Of a stretch of 64,000 nucleotides of DNA, positions 18,819-56,109 are shown piece after piece; the first letter of the stretch is position 1; each line of letters begins with the position of its first letter. Both the position numbers and the translations under genes were made by a program. Under the pieces are notes generated by a model. That model saw only the letters and a program-made list of their open reading frames with translations, was not told the DNA's origin and did no database searches. Source of the stretch: Woeseiaceae bacterium (lineage in GTDB: Bacteria > Pseudomonadota > Gammaproteobacteria > Steroidobacterales > Woeseiaceae); contig JASJBG010000007.1 in NCBI GenBank assembly GCA_030066625.1, positions 1-64,000 of the forward strand, given 5' to 3'.

Positions 18819-19544
18819 TTACTCTCCCTGCTCAAGGGTTTTCAGTGCCCGCCTCGATTCGAGCTTTTCATCGAGTACGCGAATCACGGTTCGCCGGATG
18901 ATCGCGACGACGATCGTAATGACAGCGACACCGATGCCCGCGATCCACCAGGTGCCGATGCCGGGGTCAACCTCGCCCGCCAGGACCTGGCCGATGTCCC
19001 GCGCCAGCGTACCCAGGTACACGTACATCGACACGATCGGCAGCATACCGACCGCTGTGGCTAGCGAGTAGGTTCGAACGTCGACGCGGGTCAGTCCATA
19101 GGCGTAGTTCAGCACGTTGAACGGAATGACAAGCGCCATGCGCGTCAGCGCGACTATGGCAAAGGCCTGCTCGCCGAGCGCATCGTCGAGTGCCCGCATG
19201 CGCTCGTTGCCCGAGATTCGGCGCTCGATCCACGATCGTGCGAGCGTCCGACCAGCGAGCATGGCGGCGGTGGCGCCAACGCTTATGCCGATCATCGCGT
19301 AAACGATGCCGGGCCCGAGGCCGAACAACAGCCCGGCCAGCGTCATGGGCACCCAGCCCGGGGTCATCGCGAGGGCGGCAACAATGGTCAGCGCGATGAA
19401 CAGCGCCGCGCCCGTCAGCGGGTTTTCACGCGCCCAGTTTTCCGAACTCTGCAACCACTCGGCTATCGGCAAGGCCTGCACGGCGTACAGCAGCGCCACG
19501 ATGAGTGCGAGAACGAGCAGACGTATTCCGTTGCGGGCCAGCAT
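18819..19544 (-). CDS. TVP38/TMEM64 (VTT domain) integral membrane protein
   Basis: A 241-aa DedA-superfamily protein with about five or six hydrophobic helices. The conserved VTT region includes MTPGWVPMTLAGLLFGLGPG and the later ALTRMALVIPFNVLNYAYGL motif. Related proteins are lipid scramblases or flippases; its substrate here is unknown. The ATG overlaps the TGA of the upstream sigma-54 activator gene (ATGA), so the two are probably translationally coupled. Confidence 0.88.
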   Translation of the reverse strand: MLARNGIRLLVLALIVALLYAVQALPIAEWLQSSENWARENPLTGAALFIALTIVAALAMTPGWVPMTLAGLLFGLGPGIVYAMIGISVGATAAMLAGRTLARSWIERRISGNERMRALDDALGEQAFAIVALTRMALVIPFNVLNYAYGLTRVDVRTYSLATAVGMLPIVSMYVYLGTLARDIGQVLAGEVDPGIGTWWIAGIGVAVITIVVAIIRRTVIRVLDEKLESRRALKTLEQGE

Positions 19545-21361
19545 CAGCGGCGCCCCGGCTTTTCAATGCCCCAGCTGCGGATGCGGTCCGCGAGCGTCGT
19601 CGGGCGTACGCCGAGCAGTTCGGCCGCACCGCCTGCCCCGGACACACGCCAGCCAGACTGCTTCAGGGCACTCAACGTGTTGCGGATCTGCAGATCGCGC
19701 ATCTCGGTCTCCGTCAGGATGTCGTGTCCATCGCCCGGCGGGGTAGCTACCTCGGACTGCGCCGGCGTGGCCGCGGAAGGCGCAAGCTCCGGCATGGACA
19801 GGTCGAGTCGCAGCCGGTTGCCCGGCGACAGGATGACGGCGCGCTCGATGACGTTCTTGAGTTCGCGAACGTTGCCGGGCCAGTCGTACCGCCTGAGCTG
19901 GTCCGCCTGTGCCTGCGTCAGCGACAGCTGCTCGCGACCGAAGTCCCGACAGGTCTGCGCGAGGAAATGCTGCGCCAGCTGCACGATATCGTCGCCGCGT
20001 TCACGCAGCGGCGGCACGTCGACCGGGAAGACCGACAGCCGGTAGAAGAGGTCTTCGCGGAACTCACCATCGACGATGAGCTTTTCGAGATCACGATTGG
20101 TCGCGGCGATGACGCGCACGTCGACGGAGCGCGTAACGTCGTCGCCGACGCGCTCGAACTCGCTTTCCTGCAGGACACGCAGAAGCTTGCCCTGCAGTTC
20201 CAGCGGAATCTCACCGACTTCGTCGAGGAAGATGGTACCGCCGTCGGCGAGCTGGAAGCGGCCAACCCGGTCGCGATGGGCGCCCGTAAACGCGCCTTTG
20301 ACATGGCCGAAGAATTCGCTTTCGAACAGTTCTTTCGGTATCGAGGCACAGTTGACCTTGACCAGCGGTCCCTCGCGGCGCGGGCTCTTGGTGTGGATCG
20401 CTCTCGCGACGAGCTCCTTGCCGACGCCGGACTCGCCCTGCAAAAGCACGCTTGCCGGCGTATCGGCGACCGCCTCGACGCGCTTCAGCATCCGCTGCAA
20501 CGCCGGGCTCGTGCCGACAATGCGGCCGAAGTTCAGCGCGACGTTGACCTCTTCGCGCAGGTAGTCGCGTTCACGCTCCAGCTCTTCCCTCAAGCGCGCG
20601 TTTTCCGCCAACGTCTGCCGCAGCCTGCGCTCTGCGCGCAGCCGCTCTGTAACGTCCTTGGAAGCAACGAGCATTCGATCAACATTGCCGTCGGCGTCGC
20701 GGTGCGAAATCGCAGAGGTGACGAGATCGAGCACCTCGCCGCTGCGGGTCACCATCTGCCGCTCGAAGTTGTTGAAGTCGCCGTCGCGTATCAGCGCTTT
20801 CAATCGGGAACCGGCATAGCGCTCGCGGTCGGTCTCGCTGAAAAAGTCGGTGATTGGCCGGCCGACAACTTCCTTGCGCGTGTAGCCGAGCTTCTGCAGC
20901 CAGTGATCCGTCACCGTAATGATCAGGCCGTCACCGTCGACCGTGTGCAACATTGCCGGGGTCGACCGGTACAGCTGCCGATACTTGAAGTTGGCACGCG
21001 CCTGGTCCGTTATCTCGCTGTGCATCGCGATCGTGCGCATGTAGGCGCCGGCCGTGTCGTACTCGACGATCGCGTTGGTGTTGCAATCGACCACCTCGCC
21101 CGTGCTCGTGACGAAACTGATCGGTTTGTTTTCCAGATTGCCGGTGCGCCTGAGCGCCGGCCGGTACTCCTCGGCGATCTGCCGCGCACTCGCCGGAGTC
21201 ACGAAGTCCTCGGGCGGCCGGCCGACCATCTCGCTGCGCTCATAGCCGAGACGCGCAACGAACGCGTCGTTGACATCGAGATAGACGCCGTCCTCCGAGA
21301 TCGACGTCGCCATCGTCGGTGCCTTGCGAAACAGCCATTGGTAGTCGTTCTGGTCCAGCAT
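19544..21361 (-). CDS. Sigma-54-dependent PAS-PAS-AAA+-Fis transcriptional activator
   Basis: A bacterial enhancer-binding protein without a receiver domain. I prefer the ATG at 21361 (605 aa) to the ORF-track GTG at 21397, because it leaves both palindromes upstream. Two PAS domains (about 5-115 and 125-240) are followed by a coiled coil and a AAA+ domain with Walker A GESGVGKE, the sigma-54 loop GAFTGA, and the Walker B-like GGTIFLDEVGEIP. A Fis-type HTH closes the protein (AAELLGVRPTTLADRI). The PAS pair suggests it senses a small ligand or redox state directly. It heads an operon with VTT-protein, dacB and the SH3 gene, and is divergent from a perfect sigma-54 promoter. Confidence 0.93.
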   Translation of the reverse strand: MLDQNDYQWLFRKAPTMATSISEDGVYLDVNDAFVARLGYERSEMVGRPPEDFVTPASARQIAEEYRPALRRTGNLENKPISFVTSTGEVVDCNTNAIVEYDTAGAYMRTIAMHSEITDQARANFKYRQLYRSTPAMLHTVDGDGLIITVTDHWLQKLGYTRKEVVGRPITDFFSETDRERYAGSRLKALIRDGDFNNFERQMVTRSGEVLDLVTSAISHRDADGNVDRMLVASKDVTERLRAERRLRQTLAENARLREELERERDYLREEVNVALNFGRIVGTSPALQRMLKRVEAVADTPASVLLQGESGVGKELVARAIHTKSPRREGPLVKVNCASIPKELFESEFFGHVKGAFTGAHRDRVGRFQLADGGTIFLDEVGEIPLELQGKLLRVLQESEFERVGDDVTRSVDVRVIAATNRDLEKLIVDGEFREDLFYRLSVFPVDVPPLRERGDDIVQLAQHFLAQTCRDFGREQLSLTQAQADQLRRYDWPGNVRELKNVIERAVILSPGNRLRLDLSMPELAPSAATPAQSEVATPPGDGHDILTETEMRDLQIRNTLSALKQSGWRVSGAGGAAELLGVRPTTLADRIRSWGIEKPGRR

Positions 21362-21372
21362 GCGGAGCAATA

Positions 21373-21424
21373 TACGGAATTCCGTAAAAACAGTCACGGC
21401 TTTTCGTAACTAACGGAATTCCGT
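21373..21424. promoter_or_regulatory. Paired palindromic upstream activating sites
   Basis: TACGGAATTCCGTA (21373-21386) is a perfect 14-bp palindrome, and ACGGAATTCCGT recurs at 21413-21424, with centres 39 bp apart. A partial half-site (TTTTCGTAA) lies between them. Relative to the predicted sigma-54 start at ~21499 their centres are about -120 and -81, the usual distance for enhancer-binding protein sites. The adjacent divergent activator is the obvious candidate to bind, and could also regulate itself from here. Confidence 0.75.
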
Positions 21425-21471
21425 AACCTACATCAACACCATAAGGCATTGATTCTAAACGAAAACACAAG

Positions 21472-21488
21472 TTGGCACGGCGGTTGCA
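21472..21488 (+). promoter_or_regulatory. Sigma-54 (RpoN) promoter
   Basis: TTGGCAC-GGCGG-TTGCA matches the sigma-54 consensus (TGGCAC-N5-TTGCA) exactly, with the GG and GC elements correctly spaced. Transcription should start near 21499 and run rightward into the 33-aa ORF and structured RNA. It is accompanied by two upstream palindromes and a divergent sigma-54 activator gene. Confidence 0.88.
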
Positions 21489-21495
21489 ACGGTGA

Positions 21496-21524
21496 CAGTG
21501 CCGGGGTAATCCGGCAGTGTTTTT
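21496..21524 (+). promoter_or_regulatory. Hairpin plus U5 at the predicted transcript 5' end
   Basis: TGCCGG (21499-21504) pairs with CCGGCA (21511-21516), loop GGTAAT, followed by GTG and five T's. It begins almost exactly at the predicted start site. It could be a 5'-protecting stem, a promoter-proximal attenuator or an Hfq-type U-tract. A second short stem AGGCC/GGCCT follows at 21527-21545, just before the ribosome-binding site. Confidence 0.45.
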
Positions 21525-21564
21525 CAAGGCCGCTTGGGCAGGCCTCTTCAGAAGGATTTGAGAG

Positions 21565-21666
21565 ATGTACAACCGTAACCCCAATGTTCAGAACGGTCTC
21601 GCGCTCGCAGGCGCACTGATCGTCCTGTTCACCCTGATGTTCGCCAGCTCGGCTGTGCTTGCATGA
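21565..21666 (+). CDS. 33-aa hydrophobic peptide under sigma-54 control
   Basis: Too short for the ORF track. ATG at 21565 with AAGGA about 10 bases upstream; TGA at 21664. The product has a polar N-terminus (MYNRNPNVQNG) and one hydrophobic helix (LALAGALIVLFTLMFASSAV) ending in LA, so it is either a single-span membrane peptide or a cleaved signal-like peptide. It is the first ORF after the sigma-54 promoter. I do not recognise a family. Coding status is supported by start, ribosome-binding site and TM-like composition, not by conservation, which I cannot test. Confidence 0.65.
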   Translation: MYNRNPNVQNGLALAGALIVLFTLMFASSAVLA

Positions 21667-21955
21667 GGAACGTGTCCGGGCGCAGCTTGAAAATGTTGCG
21701 CCCGGCCTGATTTCTGGCTCGAGAGGCTTAGGACCTCTCATGAGACCCCCAGCGGTGTGGGTCGACCCGGGTTTCTCTCCCCCCGATCGCCCGGGAAGAA
21801 CCGCACCGCAATGCCGGATGGGAATCCGGCGAAAACGGACCGGGATGGTCCGGCGGCAGCTCCCCTGCCGTATCCCTGGGCGCCGGAGACCGCTCCGTGT
21901 CGGACGGCCCGCTGACTCGATCATCGAATTCAGCTCTCCGGCGCCTTCTTTTTTA
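21667..21955 (+). ncRNA. Candidate structured RNA downstream of the 33-aa ORF
   Basis: About 285 bases without an ORF but full of perfect stems: CCGGGCGCA/TGCGCCCGG (21676-21705), GAGAGG/CCTCTC (21721-21739), GCGGTG/CACCGC (21752-21809) enclosing CCCGGG/CCCGGG, GCCGGAT-GGGA-ATCCGGC (21813-21830, GNRA loop), CGGACC/GGTCCG (21836-21852) and CGGCAG/CTGCCG (21854-21870), then a terminator. Three hairpin loops contain GGA, the core of CsrA/RsmA binding sites. It could be an sRNA released from, or co-transcribed with, the peptide mRNA. It matches no RNA family I can name. Confidence 0.5.
21879..21953 (+). terminator. Intrinsic terminator of the sigma-54 transcript
   Basis: GGCGCCGGAGA (21879-21889) pairs perfectly with TCTCCGGCGCC (21935-21945), and is followed by TTCTTTTTT. 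The stem is 11 bp, but the 45-nt loop is longer than usual and contains its own small stem. It ends right at the stop codon of the convergent PGPGW gene. Confidence 0.65.
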
Positions 21956-52513: not shown

Positions 52514-52740
52514 TTTTGTTCCCTCGGAGCATCGCCCGCGGCGACGTTCCTGCTTACGTTAAACGGGTTTGGGTGAGCAATGATCCGCCGGCCATTCGGG
52601 CATGTCAACGCAGGCCCGAACTCGACCGAAAACGGCGCGCCGGACAGGATCGCTGCGGGCGTTTTGACAATATATTTTTTTCTGGGTTCGCCGCGTTGAC
52701 AGCCCCCCGGCGCAGTGCAACGATGCGGGAACGTTGGATA
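52514..52740. promoter_or_regulatory. Divergent intergenic region upstream of the riboswitch
   Basis: Separates the lipoprotein operon from the riboswitch-FAD oxidase unit. It holds an AT-rich block, TTGACAATATATTTTTTT (52664-52681), whose TTGACA has no good -10 partner at normal spacing on the plus strand; the same block offers TATATT for the minus strand. A second TTGACA (52696-52701) also lacks a strong -10. I see no gene here. Confidence 0.45.
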
Positions 52741-52832
52741 ACGGCACACCTGTCCGAAAGGCAGGGTCGCAAAGCCACCGGTCTAAGGAATCGCTCAGGG
52801 AACGGGCGTCTAGGACAGCGGGGCCACCGGAG
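52741..52832 (+). promoter_or_regulatory. Cyclic-di-GMP-I (GEMM) riboswitch
   Basis: The sequence carries the GEMM-I hallmarks in order: P1b stem CCTGTCC-GAAA-GGCAGG (52749-52765), GTCGCAAAGCC (52766-52776), the tetraloop-receptor arm ACCGGTCTAAGG, then the second stem-loop and AGGACAGCGGGGCCACC (52812-52828). This matches the Vibrio Vc2 aptamer pattern GACGCAAAGCC...CCTAA...AGGTAGCGGGG. The aptamer ends in CCGG, directly joined to the GGAG (52829-52832) ribosome-binding site 6 bases before the ATG. Control is therefore probably translational; I see no terminator. Confidence 0.93.
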
Positions 52833-52838
52833 ACGAGA

Positions 52839-54197
52839 ATGAGTGCAGCCCGCCTGAAGAACACCGGACGTTACAGGGCACGGCCACCGGCCGAACCTGC
52901 CGAGATTTCCGCAAACAGCATCAAGACAGTGCTGCGGACGCTCGACCGTGATGCGCATATCGCGACGCCGATCCGGCCCCAGGGCGCGGCGACCGCCTCC
53001 ACCGACTGCAACGTTAGCTCGTCTGGCACGGCCATCCAGCTGTCCGGGCTCGACCGTATTCTCAACATCGATGCCTACAATCACACCGTGACCGCGCAGG
53101 CGGGTGTCCGGCTGTATGCGCTGGCGGAGGCACTCGCGGAGCACGGCCTGGAGCTCATCGGCAATCACGAGATGACCGGCCGCACGCTCGGCGGCGCCAT
53201 TGCGGCACCGTGCCTCGGTGCCGGCATCGGCCGCGAGGCGGGCTCGCTGGGCAGTCACGTGATCAATCTCAAGATCGTAACGGGCGCCGGCAAGCCGATG
53301 ACCGTCACCAGCGAGCAGAAGAACCTGCTCTGCGCGATGCGCGCAAGCTACGGCCTACTCGGCGTGATCGTCGAAGCAACGCTCAGGGTCCAGCCGATCA
53401 GTACCTTTACGGCGACCCACCGGCGGCTCTCGATCGAGGAGTTTTCGAAGGTCGTGGATCGGCTCTCGAACGGCGATGTCGGCTTCCGCTTCTGCCTGAT
53501 GCCCTACCGCGATCGCGTCTACCTGGACCTCAGGCGTTACGGCCCGGACAGCGGCAGTTCCTACAGCGCGCCCTGGAAGATCAAGGACTGGGGCGAGAGC
53601 ACCGTGCTGCCGCACGTCTGCAAATCACTCAACCGGCTGCTGCCGATCCAGTCCGTGCGCTATCGGCTGATCGACAGCGTCACCGAGGCGACCCAGGGCA
53701 TCGTCAACAGCCGTTTCGTGCGCGCCGGCAGCAACGCCACAGCTGCTACGGGCGGCCGCACGGCCAGCAGCACCCGCCGGGTGTTGTATTCGACCTGGTG
53801 TTTCCCGGCGAGTGACTTTTCGTTCGTCCTCAAGGCCTACGAACAATTCTGCACCGAGATGTACGAGCGTACCGGCTATCGTTGTGACGTGCCCGCGATC
53901 GGCTATCGCGTCGTCAAGGATGCATCCGCGGTGCTGTCGCCGTCCTTCGACGAGCCGATGATCGCGCTGCAGACCGCGTCCACGCAGCAGAAGGGCTGGG
54001 ACGACTTCGTCATCGATCTGGCCGACTTCGCCGAGCATTGGGCGGGCGTGCCGATCTTCAGCCAGACGCGCTCGGTCCGCGCCGAGTACGCCGGCCAGGT
54101 CTATGCGGACCGGCTCGACTTCTTCCGCCGCATCCGTCGACAGCTCGACCCCGAGGACCGGCTGCTGACGCCGTTCATGGCGCAGTACTTCCAGTAA
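52839..54197 (+). CDS. FAD-binding oxidase (D-arabinono-1,4-lactone oxidase-like), c-di-GMP controlled
   Basis: ATG at 52839 behind the riboswitch's GGAG; the ORF track starts 35 codons too early, inside the aptamer. 452 aa. A PCMH-type FAD domain (about 25-200) holds RPQGAATASTDCN and TGRTLGGAIAAPCLGAGIGR; the C-terminal ALO-type domain ends RIRRQLDPEDRLLTPFM. The His that carries covalent FAD in many relatives is not evident at the PP-loop, so FAD may be non-covalent. Substrate unknown. Confidence 0.87.
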   Translation: MSAARLKNTGRYRARPPAEPAEISANSIKTVLRTLDRDAHIATPIRPQGAATASTDCNVSSSGTAIQLSGLDRILNIDAYNHTVTAQAGVRLYALAEALAEHGLELIGNHEMTGRTLGGAIAAPCLGAGIGREAGSLGSHVINLKIVTGAGKPMTVTSEQKNLLCAMRASYGLLGVIVEATLRVQPISTFTATHRRLSIEEFSKVVDRLSNGDVGFRFCLMPYRDRVYLDLRRYGPDSGSSYSAPWKIKDWGESTVLPHVCKSLNRLLPIQSVRYRLIDSVTEATQGIVNSRFVRAGSNATAATGGRTASSTRRVLYSTWCFPASDFSFVLKAYEQFCTEMYERTGYRCDVPAIGYRVVKDASAVLSPSFDEPMIALQTASTQQKGWDDFVIDLADFAEHWAGVPIFSQTRSVRAEYAGQVYADRLDFFRRIRRQLDPEDRLLTPFMAQYFQ

Positions 54198-54394: not shown

Positions 54395-54949
54395 ATGCGC
54401 GCGATGGATGTAAAGACTGTTTGCCTCGGGATGCTCTCCGACGGAGAGGCGTCCGGTTACGACTTGAAGAAGGAGTTCGAATCGACGTTCGGGCACTTCT
54501 TCGCGGCCGGCTTCGGCTCGATTTACCCGGCACTGGCGGCGCTGGCCGGCGACGGACTGGTGGATTGCCGGGAAGTCCCGCAGGAAGGCAAGCCCGACCG
54601 CAAGGTCTACAGGATCACCTCGGCCGGCATGGCCCGGCTTAAAGAATCGCTGAAAAAGCCCGACCCGAGCCACAAGCTGCGCTCGGAGTTCCTCGCAACG
54701 CTCTGGTTCGCTCACCTGATGGAGCCGGAAGACATCGAGACCGTTCTCAGCAACCGGATGGCTGACATCGACCGCTATATCGTCATGTTCAACGAATACG
54801 ACGCCGGCGGCATGAAAGACTGGACGCCCGGCGAGCGCTTCGTCTGCGGGTTCGGCAAGGCCGTGACGGAGACGATCAGGCAGTACATCGAAGACAACGC
54901 GCACATGCTCAAAGCCAGGCCGACGCAAAAGAAGACGGCGACGGGCTGA
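54395..54949 (+). CDS. PadR-family transcriptional regulator
   Basis: 184 aa: an N-terminal winged HTH with LGMLSDGEASGYDLKKEFE and GSIYPALAALAGDGLVD, then YRITSAGMARLKES and a C-terminal coiled-coil dimerisation helix (about 95-180). The second in-frame ATG (54404) is an alternative start. It lies 35 bp before an RND efflux adaptor, so it is probably the repressor of that efflux operon. The C-terminal domain is of the long (subfamily 1) type. Confidence 0.9.
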   Translation: MRAMDVKTVCLGMLSDGEASGYDLKKEFESTFGHFFAAGFGSIYPALAALAGDGLVDCREVPQEGKPDRKVYRITSAGMARLKESLKKPDPSHKLRSEFLATLWFAHLMEPEDIETVLSNRMADIDRYIVMFNEYDAGGMKDWTPGERFVCGFGKAVTETIRQYIEDNAHMLKARPTQKKTATG

Positions 54950-54984
54950 GGCCACAAAGAACTCACTGACAGGATTATCAAACG

Positions 54985-56109
54985 ATGGACTTGGGCTTTT
55001 TCGAGAAACACCGTTCGTGGCTGATGTCGGCGGGGATCGCCGCCGTTATCGGCTTGTGGCTGTTGTCCGGCCAGTTCGGGGGCGAGAGCGCTGCTGAGGA
55101 CGTGGCGCCGGCAGCCAGCACCGTCGAGCCGGAGCGTTCCAGCGTACGCGTGCGTACGCAATCGGCCGAGGAGGTGCAGCGTACGATCGTCGTCAATGGC
55201 CAGACCGCACCAGCGCGTATCGTCACGCTGGCGGCGGAGACGGACGGCCGCATCGAGGCCGTTGGCGCAGATCGTGGCAGCAACGTCGCACGCGGCGGCC
55301 TCGTGGTGCGGCTCGACGAGCGCGATCGCAGCGCCCGGCTCGCTCAGGCGCAGGCAACCGTCAAGCAGCGCGAGGTCGAGTTCGAGGCCCGCGAGAGCCT
55401 GAAATCATCGAGCTACGTGTCAGAGGCGCAGCTGCAAGAGGCGGTCGCATTACTCGAGGCGGCAAAAGCCGAACTCACACGCGCCGAACTGGACCTCTCC
55501 TACATGACGATTCGCGCCCCGTTCGACGGCGCGCTGCAGGACCGCATGGTCGAGGAAGGCGATTTCGTGAGTCGCGGCGACCCGGTCGCGACCTTCGTCG
55601 ACAATCGCACGATCGTCGTCTCTGCCGACCTGTCGGAATTTGACGCGGGCCAGGTCGAGGTTGGCGAGACGGCCGAGGCGCGGCTCGCGACCGGTGAGGC
55701 CGTGCATGGCCGCATTCGCTATGTCGCGCCGGTGGCGGATGCCGCGACGCGCACCTTCGCGGTGGAGCTCGAGGTCGACAACGCGAACGGCGACCTGCGT
55801 GCGGGTGGCACAGCCGAACTCAGGATCCCGGCCGAGACCGTGCTCGCGCACCGGATCTCGCCGTCGCTCCTGACGCTGGATGATGCCGGCAACGTCGGTA
55901 TCAAGATCATCAATGACGATGGCGAAGTCGAGTTCGTCGTCGCCGATATTGCGCTGTCGTCCGAGGACGGCGTCTGGGTCGCCGGGTTGCCGGCCACAAC
56001 GACGATCATCACGGTCGGCCAGGGCTTCGTTGCGAGCGGCTCGTTCGTTAACGCCGTGCCCGAGGGCGACTCCGACACGGCTGTGGCGATAAAGTCCGAC
56101 GGAGAGTAG
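54985..56109 (+). CDS. RND efflux periplasmic adaptor (HlyD/MFP family)
   Basis: 374 aa. One N-terminal membrane anchor (GIAAVIGLWLLSGQFGG) and no lipobox. The lipoyl domain halves flank a helical hairpin (about 130-190), with the second half LSYMTIRAPFDGAL and then the beta-barrel domain (EVGETAEARLATGEA). The proximal domain is short. It starts 35 bp after padR and ends 4 bp before the RND permease, its obvious partner. No outer-membrane TolC gene is in the window. Confidence 0.92.
   Translation: MDLGFFEKHRSWLMSAGIAAVIGLWLLSGQFGGESAAEDVAPAASTVEPERSSVRVRTQSAEEVQRTIVVNGQTAPARIVTLAAETDGRIEAVGADRGSNVARGGLVVRLDERDRSARLAQAQATVKQREVEFEARESLKSSSYVSEAQLQEAVALLEAAKAELTRAELDLSYMTIRAPFDGALQDRMVEEGDFVSRGDPVATFVDNRTIVVSADLSEFDAGQVEVGETAEARLATGEAVHGRIRYVAPVADAATRTFAVELEVDNANGDLRAGGTAELRIPAETVLAHRISPSLLTLDDAGNVGIKIINDDGEVEFVVADIALSSEDGVWVAGLPATTTIITVGQGFVASGSFVNAVPEGDSDTAVAIKSDGE

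Follow-up and report, generated by a model that had tools for sequence, protein, structure and literature searches.

We propose that a locus in the 64,000-nucleotide (nt) stretch of DNA analysed here (the window), part of a Woeseiaceae metagenome-assembled genome that is ~89% complete, is a single-target sigma-54 switch making a dual-function transcript, whose C-rich-loop regulatory RNA would repress other genes in trans; we put the probability of this reading at roughly 0.6. In the proposed mechanism, a cue sensed by two PAS domains would activate an AAA+ activator, which, bound at three evenly placed palindromes, would fire one sigma-54 promoter. The predicted transcript of ~455 nt would be translated into a small signal-peptide-bearing protein (~90 amino acids (aa) ancestrally, 33 aa in the window), and its 3' end would form a terminator-capped regulatory RNA. 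This RNA would show UCCCC/CUCCCC loops on stable stems and, as we infer, pair in trans with putative target mRNAs at G-rich ribosome-binding sites, repressing them. A coding-constrained open reading frame (ORF) and a covarying RNA both lie between the promoter and the terminator.

The module is laid out as follows. Palindrome counts are of ACG-N6-CGT at the expected positions, with a tolerance of 3 nt; order loci were picked by activator similarity, so that all order statistics given here describe activator-linked modules.

19544..21361, minus strand: sigma-54 activator (bacterial enhancer-binding protein), 605 aa, PAS-PAS-AAA+(GAFTGA)-C-terminal helix-turn-helix (HTH), from Pfam and translation
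21374..21385: distal palindrome ACGGAATTCCGT, centre -119.5, in 34/34 genus, 17/18 family and 19/26 order loci
21396..21407: middle palindrome ACGGCTTTTCGT, imperfect, centre -97.5, in 31/34 genus, 18/18 family and 17/26 order loci
21413..21424: proximal palindrome ACGGAATTCCGT, centre -80.5, in 32/34 genus, 17/18 family and 16/26 order loci
21473..21488, plus strand: sigma-54 promoter TGGCACGGCGGTTGCA, TGGCAC-N5-TTGCA, predicted +1 at 21499
21565..21666, plus strand: 33-aa ORF MYNRNPNVQNGLALAGALIVLFTLMFASSAVLA, by ORF comparison and coding constraint a signal-peptide/transmembrane remnant of a ~90-aa secreted protein family
21676..21705, plus strand: lineage-specific hairpin in what was once C-terminal coding sequence, from the fold and motif remnants in relatives (L006, L009, L023)
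21752..21809, plus strand: C-rich hairpin 1, outer stem 21752-21760/21801-21809, inner stem CCCGGG 21766-21771/21790-21795, loop with UCUCUCCCCCCGA, from fold and alignment
21813..21830, plus strand: hairpin 2, GGGA loop (RGGA in most congeners), from fold and alignment
21836..21852, plus strand: hairpin 3, GGGAU loop (AGGA in many congeners), covarying stem, from fold and alignment
21854..21870, plus strand: C-rich hairpin 4, CGGCA-GCUCCCC-UGCCG, 100% of cells paired, C-run nearly invariant
21879..21954, plus strand: branched intrinsic terminator GGCGCCGGAG...CUCCGGCGCC and U-run, helix P1 with 100% of cells paired and both-side changes at 3/10 pairs

Two PAS domains, Sigma54_activat (E 1e-71) and an AAA lid were found in the activator by Pfam, and GAFTGA is read in its translation; an AAA+ domain carrying GAFTGA identifies a sigma-54 enhancer-binding activator, as an original prediction made from the letters of the window had claimed. 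The Fis domain claimed there stands in part: the C-terminal HTH is Fis-like by eye, but Pfam did not report it. The activator gene is divergent from the promoter, ORF and RNA, with the palindromes between them. Both palindromes of the original prediction (about -120 and -81) are present; it had missed the imperfect middle one, which brings the total to three, spaced 22 and 17 bp from start to start. The promoter, described as perfect, indeed has zero mismatches, and in relatives the same -24/-12 element recurs about as far from the activator. All three palindromes are present in 29/34 genus, 16/18 family and 10/26 order loci, and at least two in 34/34, 18/18 and 19/26, respectively. Their position, symmetry and co-conservation suggest that they are activator binding sites, and the putative sites would act on the -24/-12 promoter, that is, on sigma-54-dependent transcription. 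Most of 31 congeneric genomes have two correctly spaced palindromes at this locus, with few, chance-like matches to the pattern elsewhere. The array is thus near-unique per genome, pointing to what is essentially a dedicated, single-target switch; this, and its conservation beside activator orthologues, supports the earlier idea that the short transcript is the main output of the activator. Since the distal palindrome lies 12 bp from the start codon of the activator, autoregulation is likely. The genome encodes rpoN, hfq and two csrA-like genes.

The original prediction proposed a search of related genomes for the activator, palindromes, promoter and mini-ORF together, and would have been undermined had they not been conserved next to activator homologues. 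They recur there in the genus, the family and the order. The module DNA matches 34/36 congeneric genomes outright. Thirty congeneric loci were examined, one of which is cut by a contig end; a divergent activator orthologue (~68-83% identical over the part held), promoter, palindromes, small ORF and RNA are syntenic in 29/29 usable ones, and the hairpin series is kept in their 3' regions, partly reduced in L005, L016 and L019. The same synteny was seen in 14 further family loci. Activator orthologues were found in several other families of the order, with 36-53% identity in the PAS region, and none in the sampled genomes of other orders of the class. Most order loci examined have the same promoter and palindromes, usually a small signal-peptide ORF, and then C-rich-loop hairpins.

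The predicted RNA is strongly structured. The region 21496-21955 folds with -220.9 kcal/mol (z = -5.35; 0/100 dinucleotide shuffles as low), and ~290 nt of hairpins plus the terminator lie downstream of the ORF, in good agreement with the ~285 nt of stem-loops originally described. The intrinsic terminator was also correctly recognised: a stem (21879-21888/21936-21945) is followed by a T-run, the distal part of its helix P3 being poorly supported (helix 60.6% paired). The branched terminator insert (ACCGCUCCGUGUCGGAUCGGCCCGCUG in the consensus) is strongly conserved in sequence in most congeners and absent in L026-L030. The C-run and stem position of hairpin 1 are kept genus-wide and its UCCCC loop family-wide; hairpin 3 shows an A-U/G-C exchange at one pair in 10 sequences and both-side changes at 3/6 pairs. 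Taken together, hairpins 3 and 4 and the terminator carry both-side changes at 14/35 pairs, where shuffles give 3.4 and slid controls 1-8. An earlier covariation count, over hairpins 1-4, gave a weaker signal, in part through misalignment of hairpins 1 and 2 in the alignment used. A pairing of the loop-1 C-run with the pre-terminator linker, suggested by RNAalifold, was set aside: it competes with the base of the terminator and rests on one varying pair, perhaps a single event.

With a covariance model the RNA was detected in 83/107 family genomes, 38/45 high-quality ones and 9/12 genera, nearly always as one copy per genome, and within the order the model matched this family only, bar one probable contaminant. 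This module, on contig C115 of G255 (L061) in a bin of another family, was rejected because its activator nests in the genus of the window and its RNA score is genus-like. Judged by its paired substitutions, the RNA is a covarying family. No gathering match to Rfam was obtained at the locus or in 20 relatives (best sub-threshold E 2.5), and the small protein (21 members) had no consistent match in Pfam or NCBIfam, only scattered weak ones; the transcript therefore still matches no known peptide or RNA, as first stated.

Across families it is the loops that persist. CCCC hairpin loops occur in 28/28 genus, 21/21 family and 21/23 order transcripts (70/72 in total), whereas shuffles give means of 6.0, 4.2 and 5.2 (~15 in total); related sequences in these sets are not independent, and the order set is diverse. 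No 290-nt segment of the window had two such loops (0/440). The loops, which expose C-runs as in C-rich-loop small RNAs (sRNAs), are mostly UCCCC, and they are C-rich in other families although the stems there are unrelated to those of Woeseiaceae; a UCCUCCCCC loop occurs twice in L130, from another family. Comparison of these transcripts indicates that C-rich-loop hairpins on unrelated stems are the order-wide constant of the RNA. A short constant motif on varying stems would also be produced by protein recognition, so the loops might act only via an RNA-binding protein and not on mRNAs. We know of no bacterial C-loop-binding regulator of this kind. Since the C-loop RNAs studied so far act by pairing (PMC3771888; PMC2837412), we hold such a purely protein-mediated role to be quite unlikely.

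Several described RNAs use C-rich loops in the way proposed here. sX13 of Xanthomonadaceae resembles the RNA of the module in that its stem-loops expose CCCC/CCCCC (UCCCCCU) towards G-rich motifs near translation starts, and its activity needs C-rich loops and G-rich target motifs, not Hfq (PMC3771888). The ORF-less versions of the module at L137, L141 and L143 are most like it. This is a likeness by description, and there are differences: sX13 lies downstream of polA and was described as constitutive, the available part of its report describing no ORF or activator, whereas in the module a sigma-54 activator is encoded divergently, the operator is threefold and an ORF usually lies upstream of the RNA. 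The locus, in a Woeseiaceae organism, is flanked by activator, PGPGW and DLH genes and so lacks the position downstream of polA in Xanthomonadaceae that marks the sX13 family. VcdRP of Vibrio cholerae is likewise a ~300-nt transcript with a 29-aa ORF, a base-pairing segment in which four cytosines are essential, and a terminator (PMC8672173); in contrast to the module it has a CRP-inhibited promoter with -35/-10 boxes, one C4 site and no divergent sigma-54 activator of its own, and here, too, the likeness is one of description. RNAIII of Staphylococcus aureus is a short-peptide mRNA that also represses mRNAs via C-rich hairpin loops at ribosome-binding sites (PMC2837412), but is a quorum-sensing effector of a Gram-positive bacterium, with no sigma-54 switch. 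Because C-rich loops serve sX13, RNAIII and VcdRP in this way, repression in trans via G-rich ribosome-binding sites is the most likely mode of action by analogy, and the RNA probably silences other genes.

Pairing could instead occur in cis, the C-rich loops closing the Shine-Dalgarno region of the same transcript, for which the icaR mRNA of S. aureus is a precedent (PMC3868564). The ORF and the UCCCC motifs would share one predicted transcript; however, the ribosome-binding sites of the ORF are of the AAGGA type and GGGG occurs in only 3/29 leaders, and ORF-less versions keep the C-rich loops. As these sites are not G-rich, we regard regulation in cis as very unlikely.

For the switch itself, the closest parallels are GlmY and other sigma-54-activated sRNAs, in which an sRNA gene has a sigma-54 promoter with an enhancer-binding protein at upstream sites (PMC6075780). 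QseF, the activator of GlmY, differs from that of the module in being a two-component response regulator that also activates rpoE. To our knowledge, GlmY neither encodes a protein nor uses C-rich loops.

The module RNA also resembles McaS/CsrB-type RNAs in having GGA hairpin loops (PMC7652899), and it might mainly be a CsrA/RsmA sponge, sequestering CsrA by the GGA loops of hairpins 2 and 3, with or without C-loop pairing, as reported for McaS. Of the genus transcripts, 24/28 have such loops, 41 in all where 3.7 would be expected; loops near the CsrA consensus from systematic evolution of ligands by exponential enrichment occur in some other families (e.g., GAACAUGGAUGUUC in L140; consensus from PMC7652899), and two CsrA-like proteins are encoded in the genome. 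The loops of the window, however, are GGGA and GGGAU, not ANGGA, with only two sites per RNA, and the conserved ANGGA hairpin loops of CsrA-sequestering RNAs were not found. Outside the genus, GGA loops are limited to 6/21 family and 10/23 order transcripts, where C-rich loops reach 21/21 and 21/23: the former are common only in the genus of the window, the latter order-wide. With GGA loops mainly at the genus level, a sponge as the principal role appears rather improbable.

The 33-aa ORF (21565-21666) is where the original prediction placed it, but comparison with relatives indicates that it is the truncated signal-peptide end of a ~90-aa secreted protein, not the ancestral product. In the 14 family loci outside the genus the small ORF is always 84-99 aa long and has a signal peptide, and the protein ends in LDLDIRLIGPTSVKIA or a sequence close to it in most of them; the 33-aa version therefore stops where the mature protein should begin. 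In the genus, three size classes occur (30-37, 45-52 and 93-108 aa), all 29 congeneric loci having an N-terminus like ENGLALLGALIVLFGV...ALA, and the 3' untranslated regions (UTRs) of short forms (e.g., L006, L009 and L023) still contain legible traces of the C-terminal motif, broken by frameshifts or nonsense changes. In the activator tree every family member outside the genus has an ORF of the long class, and no fewer than five switches between length classes are required by well-supported branches; on this tree the ORF has been shortened repeatedly in the genus. Its N-terminal part still evolves as coding sequence, to judge from differences of 0.40/0.26/0.61 at codon positions 1/2/3 and a pN/pS of 0.50 in the genus, with synonymous sites near-saturated. 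ORFs in the wider loci were called simply from a start codon, a hydrophobic stretch and a purine-rich leader, which makes individual start sites provisional. Small secreted proteins of other families (L134, L144, L160, L130, L133 and others) carry a TonB-box-like EEIVVTAPR / DEIVVxG just past the signal peptide, which hints at a link to TonB or TonB-dependent receptors.

The presence of a small ORF across the order and its N-terminal constraint in the genus would also fit a secreted protein as the sole product that matters, the 3' hairpins being a stabilising 3' UTR and terminator. Against this, the RNA was retained through repeated truncation of the ORF, and a passive 3' UTR would not be expected to conserve a C-rich loop sequence on stems that are unrelated. 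At L137, L141 and L143, all from one other genus, the promoter is not followed by any ORF with a recognisable ribosome-binding site, and the predicted ~160-nt transcript consists of C-loop hairpins and a terminator. We consider a protein-only function unlikely; the best reading of these sequences is that the RNA is the constant, core output, the ORF being shortened in the genus and absent in one other lineage.

Some observations weigh against a C-loop RNA as the main product. The hairpin 4 loop of the window (CUCCC in the fold) is weaker than that of most relatives, and the commonness of GGA loops in the genus points to protein binding as an additional or different role. Next to the most distant orthologues (f5; L147 and L148) there is a small ORF, and no clear C-loop RNA was seen in the 330 or 212 nt inspected. 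Because its N-terminal part is under coding constraint, the peptide may not be dispensable in the genus of the window.

On balance we favour, with some reserve, an order-level new module in which a dedicated enhancer-binding protein and a three-site operator would drive one transcript. This transcript would form a series from an mRNA with an RNA tail, through a dual-function RNA with a shrinking signal-peptide ORF, to a pure C-loop sRNA, only the C-rich loops and the switch being constant.

In most congeneric loci the module is followed by a convergent PGPGW gene and then a DLH gene. Elsewhere in the window, a c-di-GMP-I riboswitch aptamer (52733-52831, plus strand; 61.9 bits, cut-off 35) sits at the start of a frame (52734-54197) encoding an FAD-binding/ALO-type oxidase, and genes for a PadR-like regulator and then a HlyD/CusB-type membrane-fusion protein lie at 54395-56109 (plus strand).

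Woeseiales are widespread in marine sediments, where they make up 1-22% of 16S sequences in surveys (PMC7082342). A search for literature naming both Woeseia and small RNA returned nothing on regulatory RNA in Woeseia, and the main text of a Woeseiales metatranscriptome paper does not mention non-coding or hypothetical transcripts. With this module the group gains a candidate signalling pathway in which sensor, operator and output are each single and defined, together with an RNA family that Rfam lacks and a small secreted protein family missing from Pfam and NCBIfam. The natural series that it offers could be used to follow the change of an mRNA 3' end into an independent sRNA, and C-rich-loop regulation can now be tested in a group from which it had not been known.

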